From Qipengyuania marincola (GTDB taxonomy: Bacteria > Pseudomonadota > Alphaproteobacteria > Sphingomonadales > Sphingomonadaceae): a stretch of DNA of 64,000 nt. Location: NCBI RefSeq assembly GCF_029688625.1, contig NZ_JARULC010000002.1, positions 806,001-870,000 of the forward strand. Reading direction: 5' to 3'. The notes below the pieces were generated by a model that worked only from the letters and a program-made list of their open reading frames with translations, was not told where the DNA came from and did no database searches. Positions 3,470 to 23,950 of this stretch are shown piece after piece; position 1 is the stretch's first letter, and the number at the start of each line of letters is the position of its first letter. Made by a program: the position numbers and the translations under genes.

Positions 3470-4141
3470 TCAGAGCCACGAAACGCCAAGATGGTCCGGT
3501 CCGTGCGCGAGCTCGCCGCCAAGGAACCCCTGGATGAGAACGAGTGCCGCCATGGAGAAGATCGACGCGCGCAACCATGCGCGGCTCTGGCTCGGCCTGC
3601 TCGCGAGGTATGCCATCGCAATACCGAGAACCGCGATCAGCATACCGGTCCATCGATGGACTTGCATGACAGTATCGCCGCCGAACCACAGACCGGTGTG
3701 AATCCATCCGAACAGAACTGCGACGACTGCGCCGATTGCTCCGCCGTAGACGAGTACGCGCACCGCACTTTCCAGGCCCGCTCCTTTCCGGCGCATCACG
3801 AACAATTCGGTGGCCGCAGCCATGAAAAACAAGGCGATCGGGAAGTGGATCGTTGCCGGATGCAGCTTTTTCAGTACGGCCATGACGCCGGTTTCGCTCT
3901 CATCCGCATGGCCACCGGCCTCGTCATGGGCTGCGCCCGCTTCATCGTGCGCGCCGGAGGACTCGCCAGCATCCGCAGTCTCGCCCATCTGCGCCATGGC
4001 CGCCTGGTCGTGCACATCGCCATTGGTGGCAGCAGGCGCGGCGCTCGCCTCTTCGCCGTGCTTTTCGTCGCCATGAGCCTGAACGGGTCCGACGAAGAGC
4101 AGGCTTGCGGCGAGCAGCGCCAGAAATGAGGGGGCTTTCAT
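3470..4141 (-). CDS. DUF2231 membrane protein
   Basis: 223-aa protein with a signal peptide (cleavage near VQA-HGDE), a His/Glu/Asp-rich periplasmic segment of about 80 residues, then four hydrophobic segments. The DUF2231 signature LHPATIHFPIALFF is at about residue 92, and a second His-containing helix IHTGLWFGGD lies further on. Related proteins are found in copper and other metal islands and are proposed to carry redox or metal cofactors; the role is not established. GGGAGA lies 11 bp before ATG 4141. A sigma-factor-type promoter (4192-4218) is immediately upstream, so this gene and the following lipoprotein may be transcribed separately from copA-copB. Confidence 0.8.
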   Translation of the reverse strand: MKAPSFLALLAASLLFVGPVQAHGDEKHGEEASAAPAATNGDVHDQAAMAQMGETADAGESSGAHDEAGAAHDEAGGHADESETGVMAVLKKLHPATIHFPIALFFMAAATELFVMRRKGAGLESAVRVLVYGGAIGAVVAVLFGWIHTGLWFGGDTVMQVHRWTGMLIAVLGIAMAYLASRPSQSRAWLRASIFSMAALVLIQGFLGGELAHGPDHLGVSWL

Positions 4142-4191
4142 GTCTCGTATGTCTCCCGACCCTGCAGTTAAAGTGCGACCTATGTGCCTGA

Positions 4192-4218
4192 TACGCACGG
4201 CAGCCGCGTGCCCCTCGC
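4192..4218 (-). promoter_or_regulatory. Predicted ECF-type promoter (copy 4 of 5)
   Basis: Read on the minus strand: GCGAGGGG, 15 bp, then CGTA, 51 bp before the start codon of the DUF2231 gene. The two blocks and the 15-bp gap match those before copA, before the anti-sigma gene, before the methyltransferase gene and before the permease gene. See the sigma-factor entry. Confidence 0.6.
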
Positions 4219-4371
4219 ATTAATTTGATAGTTCAGCGCGACTGAAGTGCGCCCGGGTGGTCACGCTTGCTGGCGGCATCATCGCGATCGTCGAACGCAT
4301 TCGGCTCCTGGCCGCGTTCGGCCTGGCGAACGAGGGTAAGGCGTTCGCCCACGCGAATAAGCCCCATGGGC

Positions 4372-5103
4372 TCAGGCGAGCTTGCTCTTCTTTGCGCGGC
4401 GGCGCAGCCTCGGCATCCGGTTCGCCAGCAGGACGAAACCCGACAGGGCTATGATCGTGCCGCCAATGCCGAACAGCAGCAGCCACCAACTGTTGATGCG
4501 GTCGCGCTCGGTCCAGTCCATGATGTGGAGGCCCCAGATGAAATCGAACAGGCGCCATGTATCGCTGCGCGCCGCCCCGAGCGTGCCGCTGGCGGCATCG
4601 ATGTAGATGCGCGTCGAAGCCTCGTCAGCATAGGTGACCTGCCAGGCCGGAAAAGGGCCGCGAAACTCGGTTCCGATGGGGTCATCGACGATCCGTGCGG
4701 CCTCGATGGTCGTGCGCGGCCCGGTCCATGCGCGCAAGGCGATGGATTTTGCCGTTGCCGCCGAGATGGGGGAGAGTTTACGCCCAGTCACCGGATCGTG
4801 GAGGCTCACGCTACCGTCAACCTTGCGGACCTCGGTCACGGCATCGCCGTCGAGCGAACGTGTCGTTACCGCTGCAAGAGTACCGTCGTTTGCGACCCAG
4901 GCCGGGAGCGGGGCATCGGCGGGCAGCGCCTCTTGTTCACGCGAAACGACATGTTCGGAGCGAACTTCTTCCAGGTCGAGAAACGACATGAGGGCGCCGG
5001 TTCCCATCCACAAGAGAACCTGGACACCGACGAAAATCGCCAGCCATTTGTGGATCTTGCTGCCGAGCACATGCAGGCGCAGCTTCAGCGACGGCGTTGC
5101 CAA
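4372..5103 (-). CDS. PepSY-associated membrane protein
   Basis: 243 aa with one N-terminal membrane helix (HKWLAIFVGVQVLLWMGTG, about 18-36), a periplasmic part containing PepSY-like segments (ALRAW near residue 127 and WQVTYADEASTRIYIDAASG near 160), and a C-terminal helix pair near 215-232 with a basic tail. This resembles iron/copper-uptake-linked PepSY-TM reductases in reduced form. Between this gene and the DUF2231 gene lie 230 bp holding only the predicted promoter. It follows the SnoaL-like gene by 27 bp in the copA direction and likely belongs to that transcript. Function in copper redox handling is inferred. Confidence 0.75.
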   Translation of the reverse strand: MATPSLKLRLHVLGSKIHKWLAIFVGVQVLLWMGTGALMSFLDLEEVRSEHVVSREQEALPADAPLPAWVANDGTLAAVTTRSLDGDAVTEVRKVDGSVSLHDPVTGRKLSPISAATAKSIALRAWTGPRTTIEAARIVDDPIGTEFRGPFPAWQVTYADEASTRIYIDAASGTLGAARSDTWRLFDFIWGLHIMDWTERDRINSWWLLLFGIGGTIIALSGFVLLANRMPRLRRRAKKSKLA

Positions 5104-5130
5104 CCGGTGCTACCTCTTCGAAAGCCGTAA

Positions 5131-5649
5131 TCAGTTGCGCGGCGCGCGCGACGAGGAATGGTACTGGACGATTCTCCACCCGTCCGCATCGTGAGCAAGC
5201 ACCGATGTCGCCACGCCGTCGCGCTCGATCACCCGGCCATCGCTAAGTTCGATGCGATAGCCATACGTCTCATAGGCATGGGCCATGTGCCCCATCCGGG
5301 TGACGGTCAGCGTGGGGTCGGTAAAGGTGAAGCTCACAATCGCGTCGAGCTCGGGGCCCAAATGGTGCTCCATGTAATTGGCAAAGCTTCCTTCGGCCTT
5401 GCCATTCTCGAAGATCGCCGAGTCCTCGGCGAAGAGCGCGCGCATTGCCTGCGCGTCGCGCGCTTCAAGAGCGGTGCGATAGGCCTTGAGGGTTTCTTCA
5501 GCGCCCGCGACATCGTCCGCCGAAGCGTCCATCGCGTGCATCTGATGGTTCGCATGGGAAGAGTGGTCCATCTGCTGCGCGAAGGCTGGCAGCGGTATCA
5601 GCGTGGCAACAAGCGCAGTCGCCGCGATGCGTGTCAAAGGCTTGGTCAT
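5131..5649 (-). CDS. Exported SnoaL/NTF2-like (DUF4440-type) protein
   Basis: 172 aa. A Sec signal peptide ends near PAFAQ (about residue 25) and is followed by a His/Met-rich segment (MDHSSHANHQMHAMD) that could bind copper. From residue ~50 an NTF2-like cone fold is suggested by ETLKAYRTALEARDAQAMRA, the segment FAEDSAIFENG and the closing strand GWRIVQYHSSSR. Such proteins are common companions of copAB in sphingomonads; the ligand is unknown. It lies 24 bp downstream of copB, so it is probably co-transcribed. Confidence 0.8.
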   Translation of the reverse strand: MTKPLTRIAATALVATLIPLPAFAQQMDHSSHANHQMHAMDASADDVAGAEETLKAYRTALEARDAQAMRALFAEDSAIFENGKAEGSFANYMEHHLGPELDAIVSFTFTDPTLTVTRMGHMAHAYETYGYRIELSDGRVIERDGVATSVLAHDADGWRIVQYHSSSRAPRN

Positions 5650-5673
5650 GGAAGTTCTATCCTTTTTGAGATT

Positions 5674-6987
5674 TCAGAACCAGAATCGCACACCGACGAC
5701 ATAATTGGTGACGCTCGGATCCTCTCCGGCGGCCCGCGCAAAATCCGCGCTGTCGCCGATGCGCCATTCCTGGGAAACGCCGACATAGGGCGCGAATTCG
5801 CGTGCGAACTCGTAGCGAAGACGCAGACCTGCCTCGATCCGGTCGAGGCCAGCGCCAATGCCGAGTTCGGGAATATCCTGAGCGGAAAGTGCGATTTCGG
5901 CACGCGGTTGAAGGATCAGCCGCTGCGTGATGCGCTGATCAAGTTCGCCCTCAAAACGCGCCGTCACATCGCCCTTGGTGGAGACGAAGGCCGCGGCATC
6001 GACCTCGAACTGGTAAGGCGCGATCCCTTGGATACCGATAACCGCGTGCGTGCGTTCCGGACCGGTCAGGTCCTGGCGAACACCCGCCTGGAAATCGAAG
6101 AAGGGCGCAATGGCGCGGCTCCAGAGCGCCTGGACCTCGGCGCCTTCTATGGGTTCGCCGAAGCTGCCCTCACCCTCGGACTTGAACCAGAATTTGTCGA
6201 TGTCGCCGCCATAATATCCCTGGATGTCCCACAGATATCCATCCTTCCCCTCGCGGGCGCGGTACTCGAGCCGGTCGCCCTGAAACCAGAAGCGCATTCC
6301 TCCGTCGGTCTCGCGGACAAGCTCGCGGCGCGCTTCGTTCATGGCTTCCTCGCCCCAGATGGCGACCGCCGCGCGCGCTGGGCCGCTCCCTGCTTCTGGA
6401 GGAGGCGGCAGCAGCGGGATATCATCGTCCGAGCCCATCTGCATCGCCGAATGGTCCATGCCCTGCCTGTCCTGCGAAGGCGTCTCCCCATGGTTCATCT
6501 GGCTGTGATCCATCTGCCCATGGTCCATCGACGAACTGGCCTCCGCCTGACCCATCTCGCCGTGATTCATCTGCGAATGATCCATCGCGCCTTCGGCGGG
6601 CTTGCCCTGCGGCATCGAGCCGTGATCCATTCCTTCATGACTTTCGGGCGATGCCTGTGGACGGGCAGCGTCCACAGGCATTGTCATGCCAGAATGGCCA
6701 TCCTGAGCGGTCATCGCACCATGATCCATGGTTGAGTGATCCATCTGCGAGCGGTCCATGGCGGCTTCAGGTTGAGCAGCCGGTTCGCATGCTCCATCTG
6801 CAACCGGATGCCCCATCGCGCGATGGCGCTCGGCTTCTTCCTCGCACTTCGTCTTCGCGTCAGCCTGCGCCTCGGCGCTTTGCTGCGGCTCCGCCGGCGA
6901 ATGACCGGCATGCTGCGCCGCCGCGGGGGAGGCGAGAACTGAGCCGGCTGCGACCGATGCGAGCAGGCTGACAATACGAATTTTCAT
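5674..6987 (-). CDS. copB: Copper resistance outer-membrane protein CopB
   Basis: 437 aa. Signal peptide to about residue 24 (SPAAAQ), then roughly 160 residues rich in Met and His with repeated MDHSQM/MDHGSM/MNHGE units that bind Cu, then the CopB beta-barrel domain from about residue 205 (AVAIWGEEAMNEARRELVRE) to the terminal aromatic FWF expected for outer-membrane insertion. It overlaps copA by 4 bp (ATGA), the classic copAB coupling. CopB is thought to sequester or export copper at the outer membrane together with CopA. The repeat region is longer than in many homologues. Confidence 0.93.
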   Translation of the reverse strand: MKIRIVSLLASVAAGSVLASPAAAQHAGHSPAEPQQSAEAQADAKTKCEEEAERHRAMGHPVADGACEPAAQPEAAMDRSQMDHSTMDHGAMTAQDGHSGMTMPVDAARPQASPESHEGMDHGSMPQGKPAEGAMDHSQMNHGEMGQAEASSSMDHGQMDHSQMNHGETPSQDRQGMDHSAMQMGSDDDIPLLPPPPEAGSGPARAAVAIWGEEAMNEARRELVRETDGGMRFWFQGDRLEYRAREGKDGYLWDIQGYYGGDIDKFWFKSEGEGSFGEPIEGAEVQALWSRAIAPFFDFQAGVRQDLTGPERTHAVIGIQGIAPYQFEVDAAAFVSTKGDVTARFEGELDQRITQRLILQPRAEIALSAQDIPELGIGAGLDRIEAGLRLRYEFAREFAPYVGVSQEWRIGDSADFARAAGEDPSVTNYVVGVRFWF

Positions 6988-8792
6988 GCTTCGCTCCCGT
7001 CGGGATTGGCGACCGTGACGATCTGAAACATCCCGGCATGCATGTGGTAGAGAAGGTGACAGTGGAAGGCCCAGTCGCCCGGCTCGTCCGCCGTCAGGTC
7101 GAACTGCGCGCTGCCACCCGGCTGCAGGATTACCGTGTGCTTGAGCGGTTGACGATCGGCCGGCGCGCCATTGACCAGCTCGAAGAAATGACCGTGCAAG
7201 TGAATGGGGTGCGCCATCATCGTGTCGTTGACGAGCTTCACGCGCACGCGCTCGTTATAGGCGAAACGGATCGGCTCGTCTGAGACGGCGGAGAACTTCT
7301 TGCCGTCGAACGACCACATGTAGCGCTCCATATTGCCGGTCAGATGAATTTCCATTCGCCGGGACGGCGTGCGGCCCTCGCGGTGTGGAGTCAGCGCGCG
7401 CAGCTTGCGATAGTCGAGCGTACGATGCGGCACATCGGCGAGACCGATGCCGGGATCGCCCATGCGGTCGACCGGGTTCATCGAGACCATGTCGAGACCG
7501 GGCCCGACCTTCACATCGGGCGGCAGAAGCGATGTGTCGCGCATCTGCATCCCCGACATGCCGGCCATGCCTGCCATCTCGGATTGGCCGGACGAACCAT
7601 GATCCATCCCCGCCATGTCGCCGCCACTTCCGTGGTCCATGCCCGACATGCCGGCATCGCCAGACGAGCCGTGGTCCATGCCGCTCATGCCCATGTCGGC
7701 CATGGTCAGAAGCGGCGGATCGCGCAGCGGCGGAATGGCGGCGCGAGCGCCGGGTGCGCTCGCGAGTGTGGCAATACCCATGCCCGAGCGGTCCATCGAC
7801 TCCGCGACCAGCGTGTAGGCTTGTTGCGCGCCCGGCGTCACGACGACGTCGTATGTCTCGGCCACACCGATCTGGAACTCGTCGACCTCCACCGGCTCGA
7901 CGTTCTGCCCGTCCGCCTGAACGATGGTCATCGGCAGGCCGGGAATGCGAATATTGAAGAAGGTCATGGCGCCGGCATTGATGAAGCGCAGCCGCACGCG
8001 TTCGCCCGGGCGGAAGAGGTATTCCAGATTGTCGAGCGGGCCATGGCCGTTCAGAAGATAGGTATAAGCCGCGCTCGACACGTCGAGGATGTCCGTCGGC
8101 ATCATGCGCATTTTCGCCCACATCCGGCGATCCTCGCCCGAAAGCGGGTAATCGTCGGTCCAGGTGTTCTGGTTGTAGTTGAAGTAGCCTTCGCCCTTCT
8201 TGAGCTTGTCGAAAATGGTGTGGGGCGACATGGCGCTGAATTCGCTCAGCACCACGATATATTCGCGGTCGGCCTGAACCGGATCGGGTCCGGCGGGATC
8301 GATCACGATCGCGCCGTAATGCCCGGCCTGTTCCTGCAGGCCGCTATGCGAGTGCCACCAGTAAGTGCCCGATTGGCGAACCGGAAACTCGGCGGTGAAG
8401 GTCTCTCCCGGTTTGACACCGGGGAAGCTCACGCCGGGCACTCCATCGAGCTGAAACGGCACGAGCAGACCGTGCCAGTGGATCGAAGTATCTTCCTCGA
8501 GCTGGTTATGGACATTGAGCCGGACGGTCGTGCCTTCCTGCAAACGCAACAGCGGACCGGGGATCGTGCCATTGACGGCGATCGCGCCGCCGCGCCTGTT
8601 GCCGGTCGCGAAGGCCGATCGGGCAACGGTGAGGTCGATATTGGGGCCGGATATCTCGTCCAGCCCCTTGCGGGCGTTACCTGCGAGGATGTCCGCGCCC
8701 CGTGCCCAGGCAGGCATCGCCCCGGCAAGGCCGAGCAGACCCATTCCTCCTGCTCCGGCTCCGAGAAACTTGCGTCGATTGACGGCGATCAT
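6984..8792 (-). CDS. copA: Copper resistance multicopper oxidase CopA
   Basis: 602-aa periplasmic multicopper oxidase of the PcoA/CopA family, which oxidises Cu(I) and holds several copper ions. A Tat signal (NRRKFLGAGAGG, residues 5-16) starts the protein. Copper-site motifs are seen: HWHG at 105-108, WWHSH at 145-149, HPIHLHGHF near 528, and HCHLLYHMHAGM near 577 with the type 1 Cys-His pair. Residues ~370-420 form a Met/His-rich insert of repeated MSGMDHGS units. ATG 8792 has AGGAG about 8 bp upstream. A predicted ECF promoter overlaps the end of the sigma gene just upstream. First gene of copA-copB-SnoaL-PepSY. Confidence 0.95.
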   Translation of the reverse strand: MIAVNRRKFLGAGAGGMGLLGLAGAMPAWARGADILAGNARKGLDEISGPNIDLTVARSAFATGNRRGGAIAVNGTIPGPLLRLQEGTTVRLNVHNQLEEDTSIHWHGLLVPFQLDGVPGVSFPGVKPGETFTAEFPVRQSGTYWWHSHSGLQEQAGHYGAIVIDPAGPDPVQADREYIVVLSEFSAMSPHTIFDKLKKGEGYFNYNQNTWTDDYPLSGEDRRMWAKMRMMPTDILDVSSAAYTYLLNGHGPLDNLEYLFRPGERVRLRFINAGAMTFFNIRIPGLPMTIVQADGQNVEPVEVDEFQIGVAETYDVVVTPGAQQAYTLVAESMDRSGMGIATLASAPGARAAIPPLRDPPLLTMADMGMSGMDHGSSGDAGMSGMDHGSGGDMAGMDHGSSGQSEMAGMAGMSGMQMRDTSLLPPDVKVGPGLDMVSMNPVDRMGDPGIGLADVPHRTLDYRKLRALTPHREGRTPSRRMEIHLTGNMERYMWSFDGKKFSAVSDEPIRFAYNERVRVKLVNDTMMAHPIHLHGHFFELVNGAPADRQPLKHTVILQPGGSAQFDLTADEPGDWAFHCHLLYHMHAGMFQIVTVANPDGSEA

Positions 8793-8824
8793 AAAGGGCT
8801 CCTGACTTGGCGTTTACCGTTACT

Positions 8825-8851
8825 TACGCGCGCGCCCAGCCAACCCCTCAA
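8825..8851 (-). promoter_or_regulatory. Predicted ECF-type promoter of copA (copy 1 of 5)
   Basis: Minus-strand TTGAGGGG, 15 bp, CGTA, with the left block overlapping the stop codon of the sigma-factor gene. Over 33 bp it agrees at most positions with the sequence before the anti-sigma gene. It would give copA its own promoter in addition to read-through from the sensor operon. Confidence 0.65.
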
Positions 8852-9408
8852 AGTTTTTCGAAGCGCTCCTTCAGCCTGTTGCGCGCGCGATATACGCGGG
8901 TTTCGATCGCCTTTTCGGTCGTTCCGAGAAGATCGGCCGCCTCGGCCTGGCTACGCCCCTCGATGGTCACGAGCACAAGCGCTTCGCGCAGCCTTAAAGG
9001 CATTCGCGCGATCTCGGCCTGAACGAGATTGAGCTCTTCCCTGGAAACGGCCAACGCTTCAGGACCCGGCAAATCGTCGGCGATGGAATGGAGTTCGTCA
9101 TCACCCGACAGTCCGAAAAAGCCTGCGACCTTGCGCCTGCGCAAACGGTCCCGGCAGCGGTTGAGGACGACGGTTGTCAGATAGGGTCCGATCGGCTTGT
9201 CCGGATCGAGCCGATGGCGCGTCAGCCACACCGAAGCGAGGCTGTCCTGAACAACGTCCTCCGCCTGAGAAGGAGAGGAAAGCATGCGTGTCGCGAGCGC
9301 GAGAAGCCGACCGGTTTCATGCTCGACGAGCTTGCTGAAAGCCCGCTTGTTACCGGCCCTCACCTGCGAGACAAGGGCCTCATCCGGATTGTCGCCCGCC
9401 CCCGACAT
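8848..9408 (-). CDS. ECF sigma factor (CnrH-like)
   Basis: 186-aa RNA polymerase sigma factor of the extracytoplasmic-function group. Sigma region 2 spans about residues 25-92 (LVEHETGRLLALATRML, then QAEDVVQDSLASVW), and region 4 about 125-180 (RMPLRLREALVLVTIEGRS, QAEAADLLGTTEKAIETRVY as the DNA-binding helix-turn-helix). It is last in a three-gene set after an anti-sigma-like and a sensor-like gene, the order of cnrYXH of nickel/cobalt resistance. Here it is followed by copA, so a copper-linked role is likely. Five promoters in the window share a two-block pattern, including the one before its own operon, as expected for autoregulation. Confidence 0.9.
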   Translation of the reverse strand: MSGAGDNPDEALVSQVRAGNKRAFSKLVEHETGRLLALATRMLSSPSQAEDVVQDSLASVWLTRHRLDPDKPIGPYLTTVVLNRCRDRLRRRKVAGFFGLSGDDELHSIADDLPGPEALAVSREELNLVQAEIARMPLRLREALVLVTIEGRSQAEAADLLGTTEKAIETRVYRARNRLKERFEKL

Positions 9409-9414
9409 GGCGCT

Positions 9415-9849
9415 TCAGTCGCGCGGGTCGCGGGTCAGGGCGTCGGAGACCTTGCGGTCGAACTGGCGTTGCTGCTCGGGTTCGAGAATTTCACGCATGT
9501 CGAAGACATGCCGTACCGTTGCTTTCTGCAGATCGCCCATACGCGCATGCACCTCGTCGATCGCGGCCGAAACCTCGGGACCGTACTCGTGCTCATTTTC
9601 CATCGCCTGGGCGAGCCGGGCATTGGCTGCGCGCGCCGATCCTTCGAGCCGTGCCCTTTCGACAGCGAAACGGGCCTCGAGCGCATCGAGACGCTGCTCC
9701 TGGTCGGCCGTCAGGGTGAGCTCGTCGTGCACGAAATCGTGGAGGCCGGAGCCGGCCTCGTGATTGGCCCAGCGATCCGCGGCAATCGCGCCGAGGCATC
9801 CTGCAAGTGCTGCGAGAAGCACCGCGAGAACGATATGCGTCGTCTTCAA
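9415..9849 (-). CDS. Periplasmic heavy-metal sensor (CnrX-like)
   Basis: 144 aa: one N-terminal membrane anchor (about 5-25), then a helical periplasmic domain of the CnrX/Metal_resist type. H30, H37 and H41 in NHEAGSGLHDFVHDEL followed by LTLTADQEQRLDALEARF reproduce the metal-sensing helix pattern of CnrX, and MRE..EPEQQRQFDRKV near the end is the family C-terminal helix. In CnrX a metal ion switches its grip on the anti-sigma factor; the same job is inferred here. It ends 6 bp before the sigma gene. Confidence 0.85.
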   Translation of the reverse strand: MKTTHIVLAVLLAALAGCLGAIAADRWANHEAGSGLHDFVHDELTLTADQEQRLDALEARFAVERARLEGSARAANARLAQAMENEHEYGPEVSAAIDEVHARMGDLQKATVRHVFDMREILEPEQQRQFDRKVSDALTRDPRD

Positions 9850-9852
9850 ACC

Positions 9853-10149
9853 CTATTGCTCCACATGGAGGAGCGCCGATGGGGACAGCTGTTCGCCGAG
9901 GATAAGACCCTCGCCAAATGACGCGGAAGACGTGCCATAGCCGCCGGGCCAACCGCTCGTTCCGGCGCCAGCTCCAAGCCCGACGACGAACAGACCGACG
10001 AAAAGGGCCGTCCGGCGGCGTCGGTCGGCGATTTCGCCAAGCTGTCCGGCGCGCTGCCAAACGCCATCCATGAAGTCGGCTGGGACCTCGTTGGCGGCGG
10101 TGGTGGAAAGCGTTCCGAGCACCGCATCAAGAGAGTGATTGTCACGCAT
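9853..10149 (-). CDS. Anti-sigma-like membrane protein (CnrY-like position)
   Basis: 98 aa. An N-terminal cytoplasmic segment of about 45 residues ends in RRRR, then one membrane helix (about 47-64, LFVGLFVVGLGAG), then a short periplasmic tail. This is the layout of CnrY-type anti-sigma factors, which bind the sigma factor with the N-terminal helices. Sequence similarity is too weak for me to assert the family; the call rests on topology and on gene order before a CnrX-like and a CnrH-like gene. ATG 10149 has AGGAG upstream. A GTG/ATG further upstream would give a longer basic N-terminus with no ribosome site. Confidence 0.65.
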   Translation of the reverse strand: MRDNHSLDAVLGTLSTTAANEVPADFMDGVWQRAGQLGEIADRRRRTALFVGLFVVGLGAGAGTSGWPGGYGTSSASFGEGLILGEQLSPSALLHVEQ

Positions 10150-10181
10150 CCGAAAAACTCCTGTGGGTTGCACGTGTCCTA

Positions 10182-10208
10182 TACGCGCTCGCCTGCACAA
10201 TCCCTTAA
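10182..10208 (-). promoter_or_regulatory. Predicted ECF-type promoter of the sensor operon (copy 2 of 5)
   Basis: Minus-strand TTAAGGGA, 15 bp, CGTA, 33 bp before the anti-sigma-like gene. It stands back to back with the promoter of the methyltransferase gene, the two left blocks being separated by 10 bp. Confidence 0.65.
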
Positions 10209-10218
10209 ACTTCTTTTT

Positions 10219-10245
10219 TTGAGGGAATGTCCAGCGCCATACGTA
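10219..10245 (+). promoter_or_regulatory. Predicted ECF-type promoter of the methyltransferase operon (copy 3 of 5)
   Basis: Plus-strand TTGAGGGA, 15 bp, CGTA, ending 37 bp before the methyltransferase start. Same blocks and gap as the other four sites. Confidence 0.65.
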
Positions 10246-10282
10246 ACCGAGACGGGTCTGTCAGAATCGGGGCTAACCCGGG

Positions 10283-10987
10283 ATGAATGGGAACCAGCTC
10301 GTGAACAATATCACCGCACCTGAAGATCACGGCGAATTTACGCCTCTTCTTGGCAAGAGCTTTCTGACGCCCCTTTACGACCGGGCGATCGGTCTGTTCA
10401 CCCGCGAACATCTCTGGCGACAAAGGATTGTCGAAGAACTGCACCTTGTCCCCGGCGACCGGGTGATCGATGTTGGCAGCGGAACCGGCACTCTTCTCAA
10501 GGCCTTGATGACGGATTGTCCGGAAGCGGGTCTGATCGGTGTCGAACCCGACCCGGATGCGCTCGCGCTTGCGCGGCGCAAGTTTGGCGCGGGAGCCGAT
10601 CTCGTGAAATGGCACAATGGCTTTCTCGAAAGCCTCAAGCTGCCCGCAGGGTGGCAGCCGAACAAGATCGTCAGCAGCCTCGTCCTGCACCAGGTCCCCT
10701 TGCGCAAGAAGCAGACAATCCTGGAAACCATCGAAAGCTTGCTCGTGCCAGGCGGAACCGTGTTGATCTCCGATTATATGAAGCAGGATAGCCCACTCAT
10801 GCGGAGCCTCTTCCGGGCGACCGTCCAGTCTCTTGACGGCATAAGCGACACGCAGCCCAGCGCCGACGGCGAGGTCGAAAAACTATTCGCCGAAATCTTC
10901 ACCGAGCCATGCCTGCTCCAACGGTTCCCGACGGCAACCGGGACGATCTCGCTATGGCGCGGATACAAGAAAGGAATTGCACAATGA
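10283..10987 (+). CDS. Class I SAM-dependent methyltransferase
   Basis: 234 aa. The SAM-binding motif VIDVGSGTGTLL is at residues 61-72, an acidic motif II (GVEPDPDALALARRKFG) follows, and the post-motif KIVSSLVLHQVPLRKKQ with LVPGGTVLISDYMKQ is typical of UbiE/Methyltransf_11-like enzymes. The substrate is unknown. The stop overlaps the start of the next gene (ATGA), so the two are translated together. Position behind the predicted ECF promoter puts it in the copper response. No cysteine set of the arsenite methyltransferase type is present. Confidence 0.85.
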   Translation: MNGNQLVNNITAPEDHGEFTPLLGKSFLTPLYDRAIGLFTREHLWRQRIVEELHLVPGDRVIDVGSGTGTLLKALMTDCPEAGLIGVEPDPDALALARRKFGAGADLVKWHNGFLESLKLPAGWQPNKIVSSLVLHQVPLRKKQTILETIESLLVPGGTVLISDYMKQDSPLMRSLFRATVQSLDGISDTQPSADGEVEKLFAEIFTEPCLLQRFPTATGTISLWRGYKKGIAQ

Positions 10988-11448
10988 ATTTGAAAAAGCC
11001 TTCGCTGCTCCGGCGATCGATTAGCGGCGCGGCCTTGCTCGTGCTGGCAGCCTGTTCGAACGTGGCTCAGGCAGCGACCTATACGATGTTCAGGGACCCC
11101 GGATGTGGATGCTGTCTCAACTGGGCAGGCCATCTTGAAGATGGGATGAACGCGAAGGTGGCATCGGTCGATAGCAACGACATGGCGGCGATCAAGACAG
11201 CGCGCGGCGTACCGGAAGAATTGTGGTCGTGCCACACGATGGAGGTCGATGGATACATCATCGAAGGTCACGTGCCCGCCGAAGCCGTCGCCCGACTTTT
11301 GCGCGAGCGGCCCGACGGCGTTGCCGGTCTAGCGGTTCCGGGAATGCCTCTGGGATCGCCCGGCATGGAGGCCGGAAACCGGATCCAGCCCTATGAGGTC
11401 ATCGCCTTTGGTCCGACCGGACAGAGCGTCTTCGCATCTTATCGGTGA
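10984..11448 (+). CDS. DUF411 metal-binding protein
   Basis: 154 aa with a signal sequence (a lipobox-like LAAC at residue 24 or cleavage after AQA at about 31) and the DUF411 core. DPGCGCCLNW places Cys at 41, 43 and 44, followed by VPEELWSCHTMEVDGYIIEGHVPAEAV in pieces. DUF411 proteins occur beside copper-resistance genes and are thought to bind Cu(I) in the periplasm. Start ATG overlaps the methyltransferase stop by 4 bp. Confidence 0.88.
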   Translation: MNLKKPSLLRRSISGAALLVLAACSNVAQAATYTMFRDPGCGCCLNWAGHLEDGMNAKVASVDSNDMAAIKTARGVPEELWSCHTMEVDGYIIEGHVPAEAVARLLRERPDGVAGLAVPGMPLGSPGMEAGNRIQPYEVIAFGPTGQSVFASYR

Positions 11449-11579
11449 TTGTAAGGAACTGACGCCAGTGGCCGCGCGAGAAATAAGGGCGATGTCTCGT
11501 TGAAGAACAATCGCGCGGGAATAACACAGAAGCCCGGGACACCGGGACGGGCGCTAAGATGCCTGTCGATCATCCCGCT

Positions 11580-11630
11580 GGGTCCGGGGCCGGCTGCCCC
11601 GACGGTCCCGGACCCTTCCGTTTGCATAAT
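11580..11630 (+). terminator. Rho-independent terminator-like hairpin
   Basis: GGGTCCGGG (11580-11588) pairs perfectly with CCCGGACCC (11607-11615), followed by a T-rich stretch with TTTGCATAATTTT. It would end the methyltransferase-DUF411 transcript. Confidence 0.65.
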
Positions 11631-11659
11631 TTTAGGACGCACGAAGTGGGAGAAATGCG

Positions 11660-11932
11660 ATGGTAAAAGGATCAATCAAGAACTCGATATTCGCATGGGG
11701 CTGGACGCTCAGCGTGTTCCTGCTTGTCAGCTACCTCCTATGCATTGCCTTCGGAGTCCTCGCACCCGAGCGGTTTCACATGCACCAAGCCTGGGCTCCG
11801 TTGCTGCCATGGTTCGAATGGCTGACCCTGTCGGGATTTCTTGCAGGAGCGGTGGGCAGTTTTCTCTACGGCTGGTACATCGCACTCATCGCGGTCCCGC
11901 TGCACCGGTTTTTCCAGGCCCGGTTTTCCTGA
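11660..11932 (+). CDS. DUF5676-like small membrane protein
   Basis: 90 aa with two or three hydrophobic helices (about 12-34, 50-75) and conserved small residues in GFLAGAVGSFLYGWYIAL, which resembles the DUF5676 family found near metal-transport and cytochrome genes. Function unknown. It has a ribosome site (GGGAG) and stands alone between a terminator and the permease promoter. Confidence 0.65.
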   Translation: MVKGSIKNSIFAWGWTLSVFLLVSYLLCIAFGVLAPERFHMHQAWAPLLPWFEWLTLSGFLAGAVGSFLYGWYIALIAVPLHRFFQARFS

Positions 11933-12094
11933 TTTGACGCGCTGAATATTAGGCGCACTCAGCGTGGACTGCCGTGCCTTGACGCGCCGCCATCGGCATC
12001 GCTGCAGGAAGAAAGAGCGCGCCGCCGGAAATCGATAGCTCAACGCGATTTCGGGGCCAGCCCAAGGATGGCTCATGCCCCGCCAGAAAATTTT

Positions 12095-12121
12095 TTGAGG
12101 GGTGAGCCGCTTCGCAACGTA
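12095..12121 (+). promoter_or_regulatory. Predicted ECF-type promoter of the permease operon (copy 5 of 5)
   Basis: Plus-strand TTGAGGGG, 15 bp, CGTA, 50 bp before the permease start. The left block is identical to that before copA. Confidence 0.65.
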
Positions 12122-12171
12122 CTGCTTGTCGTGATGTTTCTCGGACGGGAGGACATCGACAGGGGAAAGAC

Positions 12172-13521
12172 TTGCAGACAGATGGCAACGATCAACATGG
12201 GAAGAGTGCTGGATCGATAACGCTGCTTGGCGGTGTCGCAATGGGAACCGGCGTCATGATCGGCGCTGGTATTTTCGCACTGACCGGCCAGATTGCCGAA
12301 CTGGCTGGACCGCTATTTCCGCTTTCTTTCATAGTCGGCGCCCTGGTCACTTCCCTAGCCGCCTACAGCTACATCAAGATGTCGAACCGCTGGCCCTCCT
12401 CTGGCGGCATCGCGATGATTCTTCAGAAGGCCTACGGACCGGGTGTTGTTGCAGCATCGGCATCGCTCCTGATGGCGCTGTCGATGGTCATCAACGAAAG
12501 CCTGGTCGCTCGGACCTTCGCGACCTATGCCTTGCGGCCCTTTGGGCTCGAGAGCAGCGGCATTCTGGTTTCCGTCGCGGCACTGGCGCTCATCGTCTTC
12601 GCCTATTTCGTGAATGCGGCAGGCAACAAATCGGTCAGCGGTTTCTCTCTCGTCATGTCGGCGATCAAGATCGGCGGCATCGCCCTGTTCGCGATTGCGG
12701 CGATCTGGGCCAGCGGCTTTTCGGGCGGCGCCTTCTCAGAGCCAGTCGCGCTTTCGGGTCTCGACGCGTTGCTCGCGTCGGTCGCCTTCTCGATCCTCGC
12801 GTTCAAGGGTTTCACCACCATCACCAACAGCGGCGGCGAAATCATCGATCCGCACCGAAATGTTGGCAGAACTATTATCATTTCGATCACAGTATGCGTG
12901 GTCGTCTACCTTCTGGTCGCGGTGGCGGTCGGAGCCAGCCTCAGCACTTCGGAAATAGCGCAAGCGCGCGATTACTCGCTTGCGGCAGCTGCGCGCCCCG
13001 CGCTCGGAGAGCTTGGGTTCTATTTCACAGTCGCAATCGCGATCGCAGCCACGACCTCGGGTGTCATCGCCAGCGTTTTCGCCGTTTCGCGAATGCTGAC
13101 GATGCTGACCGAAATGAAGATGATCCCGCATAGCCATTTTGGGATGAAGGGACCGATCCGCAGTCACATGCTGGTCTATACCGTCGTGGTCGCCGGCACG
13201 CTCGCGGTCCTGTTCGATCTTTCGCGGATCGCCTCGCTCGGAGCGTTCTTCTATCTCGTAATGGACATGCTCGTGCATTGGGGCGTGCTGCGCGGTTTGC
13301 GGGAAGAAATAGGCGCGCGTGCCTGGATCCTCTGGTCGGCGCTCATGGCGGACGGCGTAGTCCTGACAGCTTTTGCCCTCGCCAAGCTCAAAACCGACCC
13401 TGCGGTCGTCGCCTATGCGGTCGCAGGTATTGCCGCAGTGTTCGGAGCCGAATGGTTCTATCTCCGTCGGAATCCTGCGCTGCGTGAAATGCCCGCCACA
13501 CACGATGGAGATCATCGATGA
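12172..13521 (+). CDS. APC-superfamily permease
   Basis: 449 aa with about 12 membrane helices. The first helix carries GTGVMIGAGIFALTG, the substrate-binding signature of amino acid-polyamine-organocation transporters; LAAYSYIKMSNRWPSSGG and KGFTTITNSGGEI are further family segments. The substrate cannot be deduced. Translation likely starts at TTG 12172, with AGGGGAA upstream; the first in-frame ATG is about 23 codons on. It overlaps the next gene by 4 bp and is headed by an ECF-type promoter, so a transporter is linked here to the envelope metal response. Confidence 0.85.
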   Translation: MQTDGNDQHGKSAGSITLLGGVAMGTGVMIGAGIFALTGQIAELAGPLFPLSFIVGALVTSLAAYSYIKMSNRWPSSGGIAMILQKAYGPGVVAASASLLMALSMVINESLVARTFATYALRPFGLESSGILVSVAALALIVFAYFVNAAGNKSVSGFSLVMSAIKIGGIALFAIAAIWASGFSGGAFSEPVALSGLDALLASVAFSILAFKGFTTITNSGGEIIDPHRNVGRTIIISITVCVVVYLLVAVAVGASLSTSEIAQARDYSLAAAARPALGELGFYFTVAIAIAATTSGVIASVFAVSRMLTMLTEMKMIPHSHFGMKGPIRSHMLVYTVVVAGTLAVLFDLSRIASLGAFFYLVMDMLVHWGVLRGLREEIGARAWILWSALMADGVVLTAFALAKLKTDPAVVAYAVAGIAAVFGAEWFYLRRNPALREMPATHDGDHR

Positions 13522-13931
13522 TCGCCGCACTAATTCTCGCCATTGCACTTTTCCTGGCCTCGGTCGGCGTGCATCTGTCGATCCTCGGCGCAGGGCATCG
13601 CATGCTCGACGCACCCGGAAATTTCTCCGCCAAACTTGGGGTCGCGCTTCTCGTCCTGGCATCGCACCTGCTTGTCGCGACGCTCTTCGCTGGCGGTTTC
13701 TGGCTGGGCGCGGAGCTGGGCCTCGGCGGGTTCGACAAGACGCCGGCGATGAGTGCGATGGACTATTTCTATTTCTCGCTGATCAACGTGACCACGCTGG
13801 GGCTCGGCGACATCTACCCGACCGAGCACCTGCGCGTCATTGCCGGCGTCGAAGCCTTGACCGGCTTCGCGCTCATCAGCTGCTCGGCACAATTGTTCTG
13901 GACCATGATGAAGGAAGGAGAAAACGCATGA
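13518..13931 (+). CDS. Ion channel (two-TM, K+ selectivity filter variant)
   Basis: 137 aa with two or three hydrophobic helices and a pore segment FSLINVTTLGLGDIYPTEHL at residues ~90-110. TLGLGD replaces the usual T-V/I-G-Y/F-G-D filter of potassium channels, Leu standing where Tyr/Phe is normal, so ion selectivity may differ. No cytosolic RCK domain. Its start overlaps the permease stop (ATGA) and its stop overlaps the next start, in one tightly coupled operon. Confidence 0.8.
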   Translation: MIAALILAIALFLASVGVHLSILGAGHRMLDAPGNFSAKLGVALLVLASHLLVATLFAGGFWLGAELGLGGFDKTPAMSAMDYFYFSLINVTTLGLGDIYPTEHLRVIAGVEALTGFALISCSAQLFWTMMKEGENA

Positions 13932-14455
13932 CTGAAAGCACATCCCACTCGGATAAGGGAGGGGGCGGGAACTACTGGCGATTCATGGCCATGGTATCGA
14001 CCTCGACCGTGATCATGTTCTTCCTGATGTACGCCAACAGCTTCGACATGGACGACGTGTTCTGGAGCGAGACGCGCTTCTGGATGATGTTCGTCATGGG
14101 CGCGATGATGATGGTGGTCATGCTTCTCTTCATGTGGGGCATGTACAAGGACCGGACCAAGAACTTCATCATCCTGGGCGTCGGAGCCCTCGTATTCGCA
14201 CTCGCGCTATGGCTCGTACGCAGCCAGACCACGGTCGACGACACCGAATACATGGCCGCGATGATCCCGCACCACTCGATCGCGATCATGACCAGCGAGA
14301 GGGCGAGCCTGAAGGATCCGCGGGTTCGCGAACTTGCGCAGGCCATCATCGTCGCGCAGCGGCGTGAGATCGCCGAGATGAAATATCTCATCGAGGACAT
14401 CGAGGAGAACGGTCCACGCACCGAAGAACGCCTGCCCGAGGAGATGCAGCAATGA
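13928..14455 (+). CDS. DUF305 membrane protein
   Basis: 175 aa. Three hydrophobic helices in the N-terminal half (about 18-35, 47-66, 76-93) are followed by a DUF305 (ferritin-like) segment with YMAAMIPHHSIAIMTSERA and the closing AIIVAQRREIAEMKYLI. The His/Met arrangement is that of DUF305 proteins from copper operons. The ATG at 13928 overlaps the channel gene by 4 bp; a longer reading frame upstream in the same phase is only the antisense-like shadow of preceding genes. Confidence 0.85.
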   Translation: MTESTSHSDKGGGGNYWRFMAMVSTSTVIMFFLMYANSFDMDDVFWSETRFWMMFVMGAMMMVVMLLFMWGMYKDRTKNFIILGVGALVFALALWLVRSQTTVDDTEYMAAMIPHHSIAIMTSERASLKDPRVRELAQAIIVAQRREIAEMKYLIEDIEENGPRTEERLPEEMQQ

Positions 14456-23576: not shown

Positions 23577-23950
23577 CCTACATAATCCTGCTCGCGGCAC
23601 CGCTGGCGCTTGCAGCCTGCGATTCTGCGGACGATACCTCCGAGACCATGATGCCTGACGAAATGGCGAACTCGGACAGTATGCCCATGTCAGGCGAAAT
23701 GCCGATGGCGGAGGAGACCGGCGGCGAGCAGAGCGCCAGCGCGGAGGGAACGGTTACAGCCATCGATCCCGAGGCGGGCACCGTGACCATCGAGCATAGT
23801 CCGGTCGAAAGTATCGGATGGCCGGCAATGACCATGGCCTTCGAAGCCGACGCGCAGATCCTCGAACAGGTCAGTATCGGTGAGGGAATAGCCTTCGAAT
23901 TTCGTACTGGAACCGAAGGCAGTGTCGTTACCTCGGTGACGCCGCGATAG
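23564..23950 (+). CDS. cusF: CusF-like periplasmic copper chaperone
   Basis: 128 aa lipoprotein (LAAC, Cys 19, followed by Asp). A Met-rich linker ([19 protein letters not shown] in two pieces) precedes the CusF fold, with [13 protein letters not shown] near 86-98 giving the Trp and Met copper ligands and [10 protein letters not shown] closing the barrel. It begins inside the 3' end of cusA (13-bp overlap, different frame). It would hand Cu(I) to CusB. Lipid anchoring and the Met-rich arm are unusual compared with the short soluble E. coli protein. Confidence 0.9.

Follow-up and report, generated by a model that had tools for sequence, protein, structure and literature searches.

The nickel- and cobalt-responsive CnrYXH system of the Cupriavidus metallidurans plasmid pMOL28 offers the closest comparison for the regulatory locus considered here. 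Its genes follow the order small membrane protein, sensor, sigma factor, and the accessible portion of PMC7689651 describes CnrX as sensing cobalt and nickel, with Met123 being required. For its promoters, the available text of PMC9045368 prints TSS_53286 (cnrY) and TSS_54660 (cnrC) as starts, places cnrYp 24 nt and cnrCp 25 nt before the respective genes based on earlier primer extension, describes both as non-RpoD and assigns their nickel induction to CnrH. A locus of similar build lies in a 64,000-nucleotide stretch of the Qipengyuania marincola genome (contig NZ_JARULC010000002.1, positions 806,001 to 870,000; hereinafter the window). On the strength of comparative sequence evidence, we consider it highly probable that five sites in the window are -35/-10 promoters of the extracytoplasmic function (ECF) sigma factor encoded at 8848-9408 and that they define a regulon of the CnrH type linked to copper genes.

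Two other ECF sigma factors show partial likeness to that of the window. CorE of Myxococcus xanthus, named as the copper ECF sigma factor in a review of copper signaling in marine bacteria (PMC10141476, accessible part), is comparably linked to copper genes; however, the same text gives the CorE type a cysteine-rich C-terminal extension and no anti-sigma factor, whereas the window sigma factor, with 186 amino acids and one cysteine, stops after region 4 and lacks such an extension. SigAb of Acinetobacter baumannii is likewise copper-responsive and has small membrane partners, one of which was modelled as binding like CnrY. In contrast to the window, its partners are encoded downstream of the sigma factor, its indirect regulon is said to include metal resistance genes, and the accessible text of PMC12153292, from which these points are drawn, makes no mention of a CnrX-type sensor. 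Among the open-access papers listed, titles and abstract openings yielded no account of a CnrH-like sigma factor over copper genes in alphaproteobacteria.

The sigma factor gene (8848-9408, minus strand) codes for Sigma70_r2 and r4_2 domains, has CnrH (4cxf, E 1.7e-28) as its best solved relative, and is the sole region-2 gene of the window (six were found in the genome). The initial annotation had called it the only sigma factor there, with one of the sites before its own operon, and both points hold. On the same strand lie a CnrX-like periplasmic metal sensor (9415-9849; PF13801; CnrX/NccX structures at E about 4e-22), which holds the five ligand residues of CnrX, and, in the position of CnrY, a small protein with one hydrophobic stretch (9853-10149), a putative anti-sigma factor by virtue of this position. 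The latter is similar to CnrY in size, is conserved among relatives and gave no Pfam or NCBIfam match. The order of the three genes is that of CnrYXH, with CnrX as the best solved relative of the sensor; however, copA and associated genes rather than cnrCBA follow the sigma gene, and the locus is therefore better said to work like CnrYXH than to be cnr.

The five sites have (A/G)AGGG-N16-CGTA in common and nothing more. They are the predicted promoters of a DUF2231 gene (4192-4216, minus; GAGGG-N16-CGTA, its position kept in close relatives), of copA (8825-8849, minus; it overlaps the sigma gene at its end), of the regulator operon (10182-10206, minus; AAGGG-N16-CGTA), of a divergent methyltransferase gene (10221-10245, plus) and of a permease operon (12097-12121, plus). 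All were recovered with the positions, strands and spacing originally reported, R plus 15 bp being the same geometry as N16. Of the consensus first proposed, TTGAGGGR-N15-CGTA, the GAGGG/AAGGG block, CGTA and the gap stand, whereas the leading TT and the R are dispensable: TT is absent ahead of the 4192-4218 block, the 10182 site reads TTAAGGG, and A, C, G and T all occur at the R position among relatives. The distances from CGTA to the start codon are 32, 32, 37, 50 and 50 bases, which corrects the earlier figure of 33-60 bp.

Equivalent elements are present on pMOL28, with AAGGG-N17-CGTATA before cnrY and GAGGG-N17-CGTATA before cnrC. Thus, both systems have (A/G)AGGG and CGTA ahead of the regulator operon and of the gene after the sigma gene, differing in the spacer (16 in the window, 17 on pMOL28) and in the number of predicted promoters (at least five in the window versus two on the pMOL28 stretch examined). 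The cnrY and cnrC starts printed in the accessible part of PMC9045368 each lie 9 nt past the A of CGTA, as counted on locus L117.

Conservation beside the operon provides part of the evidence. A scan of 199 genomes of the family gave 44 with a sigma match at E <= 1e-30, and 40 loci, near-copies included, were fetched; RAGGG-N16-CGTA occurs 141 times and in all 40, while every other spacer from 8 to 26 gives 0-9 occurrences. Loci from named genomes (80 of 233), ten plasmid loci and further genomes brought the collection, picked by sigma homology, to 236, all but one of which (235) pair a sigma gene with CnrX. A subset of 228 had both flanks in full and an uninterrupted sigma match covering at least 150 amino acids, and dereplication at 90% sigma likeness left 99. 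An N16 or N17 site adjoins the operon in 96 of these, being found ahead of the cnrY-like gene in 90, in divergent position in 65 and behind the sigma gene in 83, with other spacers (10-23) never giving more than one match at any position. Counts per gene come from an earlier set of 42 dereplicated loci: the N16 element precedes copA in 36/37 sigma-carrying loci, the cnrY-like gene in 26/30 (N17 in a further 2/30), and DUF2231 in 12/15, as compared to 8/19 for the permease, 4/22 for DUF411 and 2/10 for the methyltransferase. None was seen before copB (10 loci), sigma (42), cnrX (42), SnoaL (15), PepSY (12), the channel gene (13), DUF305 (16) or DUF5676 (18); off-spacer matches do occur, with N19 preceding SnoaL in 2/15. 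As the element is near-universal only at the regulator operon and copA, these constitute the constant core, while the remaining targets vary.

Genomes with no close match to the sigma factor provide the complementary contrast. Eighteen of these 155 were hand-listed as controls, by handle rather than by result; copA was matched in 16, and 17 of 20 loci were read (the other three being second pieces of read matches), one of them without a readable copA start. The motif precedes copA in 0/14 where the stretch has no sigma or CnrX relative, and with the N16 spacer in 2/2 where a distant sigma/CnrX pair is present. Per genome, TKRAGGG-N16-CGTA averages 4.35 in those with a close sigma (n=34) versus 1.60 in those without (n=155), the backward control giving 2.76 and 2.28, respectively. 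Copper clusters often carry regulators of the two-component or MerR type, and the blocks could be conceived as the operator of such a regulator rather than as a sigma promoter. We regard this as improbable: the copA motif tracks the adjacent sigma gene (36/37 versus 0/14), cnrY and cnrC, which belong to a system described as under CnrH control, are preceded by the same blocks, and the elements are directional, lying 32-50 bases ahead of start codons.

That the sites are chance matches had been judged unlikely from their shared gap and orientation, and simulations agree. The region 3500-13200 has five matches, whereas 400 first-order Markov sequences averaged 0.05 and never exceeded one, a roughly 100-fold local excess; the whole window has six, whereas 100 simulated windows averaged 0.31 and never exceeded three; each of the other spacers from 8 to 23 gives 0-2 matches in the window. 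What speaks for chance is the genome-wide scan, in which counts equal those of the backward control: across 2.99 Mb, RAGGGR-N15-CGTA gives 11 matches (six in the window) versus nine, and GAGGG-N16-CGTA 13 versus 14. A chance origin is nonetheless rejected, its probability being negligible in view of the local excess, the spacer-specific conservation in 96/99 loci and the copA contrast. Because there is no genome-wide excess, the case rests on clustering, orientation and conservation, not abundance. Among the ten matches outside the window, nine fall within an open reading frame (ORF) of at least 120 amino acids, and no start of an ORF that long lies within 150 bp of the tenth; a mechanical ORF start lies at most 150 bp downstream in four of the ten. 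A regulon reaching beyond the cluster is thus unsupported in the Q. marincola genome by these counts and by the outside matches.

Besides the absence of a genome-wide surplus, several other observations weigh against a sigma promoter reading. Three of the 99 loci (L204, L208, L226) have no site, and in ten genomes whose sigma matches are weak the motif is no commoner than its control (1.40 versus 1.40). The putative anti-sigma factor, unlike the other two products of the operon, shows no detectable profile similarity to its CnrYXH counterpart, CnrY, in hhalign comparisons of shallow 7-row and 3-row profiles. Further, in the accessible part of PMC9045368, Table 4 puts TSS_53286 under RpoD-dependent and TSS_54660 under non-RpoD-dependent starts, which leaves the cnrC promoter as the clean comparison. 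On balance, the proposal that the sites are promoters of a CnrH-like sigma factor governing a copper subset is supported as to the promoter link, given the conservation beside the operon, the copA contrast, the cnrY/cnrC blocks and CnrH as the best solved relative, whereas "copper" follows from gene content only, and just the regulator operon and copA are near-constant.

The motif, its orientation, its spacer-specific conservation, its dependence on the adjacent sigma gene and the CnrH/CnrX kinship are all read from sequence; beyond these, we infer a mechanism of sequestration and release. The small membrane protein encoded at 9853-10149 would keep the sigma factor at the membrane until the CnrX-like sensor binds a periplasmic metal ion, upon which the hold on the sigma factor would loosen. 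The freed sigma factor would bring RNA polymerase to (A/G)AGGG-N16-CGTA, with transcription starting about 9 nt on; transfer from pMOL28 predicts starts at 4183, 8816, 10173, 10254 and 12130, which would give leaders of 24-42 nt. One promoter would thereby provide feedback on the regulator operon. The others would serve the copA operon, the methyltransferase and DUF411 genes, the permease operon and the gene for the DUF2231 protein.

As to which metal is sensed, the CnrX ligand positions, Met123 among them, read HHEHM in 98 of 100 sensors, those of the window and CnrX included; the two exceptional sensors have HHEHI and DHEHI. With the five CnrX ligands kept, the sites may belong to this sigma factor but nickel/cobalt or several metals open the switch, the copper genes being part of a broader metal response. 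This is the ligand set of a sensor with the cobalt/nickel response and Met123 requirement noted above; however, we hold this alternative to be rather unlikely given the gene content of the loci. A copA relative lies in the fetched stretch of 79 of the 99 loci (76 N16, three mixed) plus three N17 loci and one without a site, as compared to five loci with cnrCBA relatives, and in the plasmid records the annotated genes nearby are largely copper genes. As HHEHM sensors are mostly found near copA relatives, either an unchanged first shell serves to sense copper or copper is not the only signal. We posit that copper is probably the signal, as judged from gene content.

The initial annotation further held that the cus genes lack the pattern, which is not strictly right: a sixth match (23882-23906, plus) falls in the cus region, within the last codons of a CusF-like gene and some 100 bp ahead of a gene for a multicopper oxidase. 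Seventeen loci were examined for it; 13 align across the site (the window's included), and 12 of these keep the motif at overall identities down to 69%, L328 being the one without it. The next long ORF in the 12 motif-keeping copies starts like a multicopper oxidase in ten and like a P-type ATPase in two, as judged by eye from the N-termini. Identical codons are used at 5/8 invariant residues inside the site and at 17/47 elsewhere, so that the site does not clearly stand out from the remainder of the gene, and the CusF-like copies form essentially two groups (four and eight) by codon choice. Coding constraint may explain the conservation, and we lean against a genuine sixth site while granting it a substantial minority chance.

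The spacer itself varies among the 99 loci, of which 84 have N16 only, nine N17 only, three both and three neither. Among the nine N17 loci, relatives of cnrCBA occur in four (a pair of Cupriavidus plasmids plus two genomes from a different class of the same phylum) and copA in three, of which two are close kin; the remaining two are others. The N17 labels of L309 and L312 are based on one site each. On a sigma tree built by a quick method with SH-aLRT support only, N17 needs five changes, at least four of them forced by well-supported branches. In one copper cluster, L240 (6427-13481), 15 kb contain five N17 sites and not one N16 site, each remaining spacer between 8 and 26 giving 0-2, and its sigma factor has a three-residue insertion in the linker, giving a length of 56. 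In the clade of the window sigma factor the linker is 53 in 29/29 N16 sigma factors and 56 in the single N17 one (L215, the same place as L240). Overall, linkers measure 56-57 in all nine N17-only sigma factors and 52-56 in the N16-only ones (22/84 at 56), an association with a Fisher p of 2e-5, kinship ignored. The idea that linker length determines spacer length is nevertheless only partly supported, being countered by two "mixed" rows of the window's own clade, with linkers of 53 and 54, and by a 32-row clade, mostly of family f7, in which the linker is 56 in 21/25 N16 and 4/4 N17 sigma factors. ECF sigma factors are strict about spacer length by a mechanism described as unknown, a 17 bp spacer working best for SigH of M. 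tuberculosis (PMC6411747, accessible part). The motif may already be drawn in the numbered ECF classification; what appears to be new here, from sequence comparison, are the switches between spacers of 16 and 17, once at five sites of one cluster, and their partial tie to sigma linker length.

The -35 blocks of the regulator operon and of the divergent gene (10182-10245) stand back-to-back with 14 bp between them, so close that two polymerases could hardly bind simultaneously. Such a pair is present in 61 of the 99 loci with gaps of 2-128 bp, most commonly 10 (11 loci) and as small as 2 bp in L241 and L247; a constant gap is ruled out by this range.

Outside the regulator operon, the predicted targets fall into four groups. 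On the minus strand are an operon of copA, copB-like, SnoaL-like and PepSY-like genes (4372-8792), including copA (6984-8792; TIGR01480, 777.6 bits against a cut-off of 478.95) and the SnoaL-like gene (5131-5649; PF13474), and the gene for a DUF2231 membrane protein (3470-4141; PF09990). The copB and PepSY labels are partly our assumption and partly drawn from annotated relatives. On the plus strand are the methyltransferase (10283-10987; PF13649) and DUF411 (PF04214) genes, together spanning 10283-11448, and an operon (12172-14455) of an amino-acid-permease-like gene (12172-13521; PF13520; TTG start) and two more, which we presume to be channel-like and DUF305-like.

Elsewhere in the window, a tRNA-Leu gene (1001-1087, plus) lies directly ahead of an ORF (1254-2132, plus) that we take to be integrase-like, a pairing consistent with insertion of an island at a tRNA gene. 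Sigma factors 95-100% identical to that of the window are coded by 27 of the 80 loci from named genomes (L118-L143 and L146), their carriers including Croceicoccus, Novosphingobium, Sphingobium, Pacificimonas and Stakelama records, suggesting recent transfer of the cluster.

A broader reading, which we hold to be less likely than not, is that CnrH-type regulators make up a large family, mostly linked to copper, whose promoter spacers and sigma architecture shift in step (several 16/17 switches, once with five sites and a three-residue insertion in the linker between regions 2 and 4), such that one base pair might insulate related sigma factors, and in which a nickel/cobalt ligand set might have been re-used for copper. 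The motif recurs beside this type of regulator in dozens of other bacteria, giving a testable promoter definition for a widespread metal-responsive sigma family that predicts which copper genes are controlled. Because spacers of both 16 and 17 bp occur in nature, one can ask how an ECF sigma factor measures spacer length, and since sensors with the same five ligands are found next to either copper or nickel genes, the metal choice of CnrX-type sensors becomes testable.

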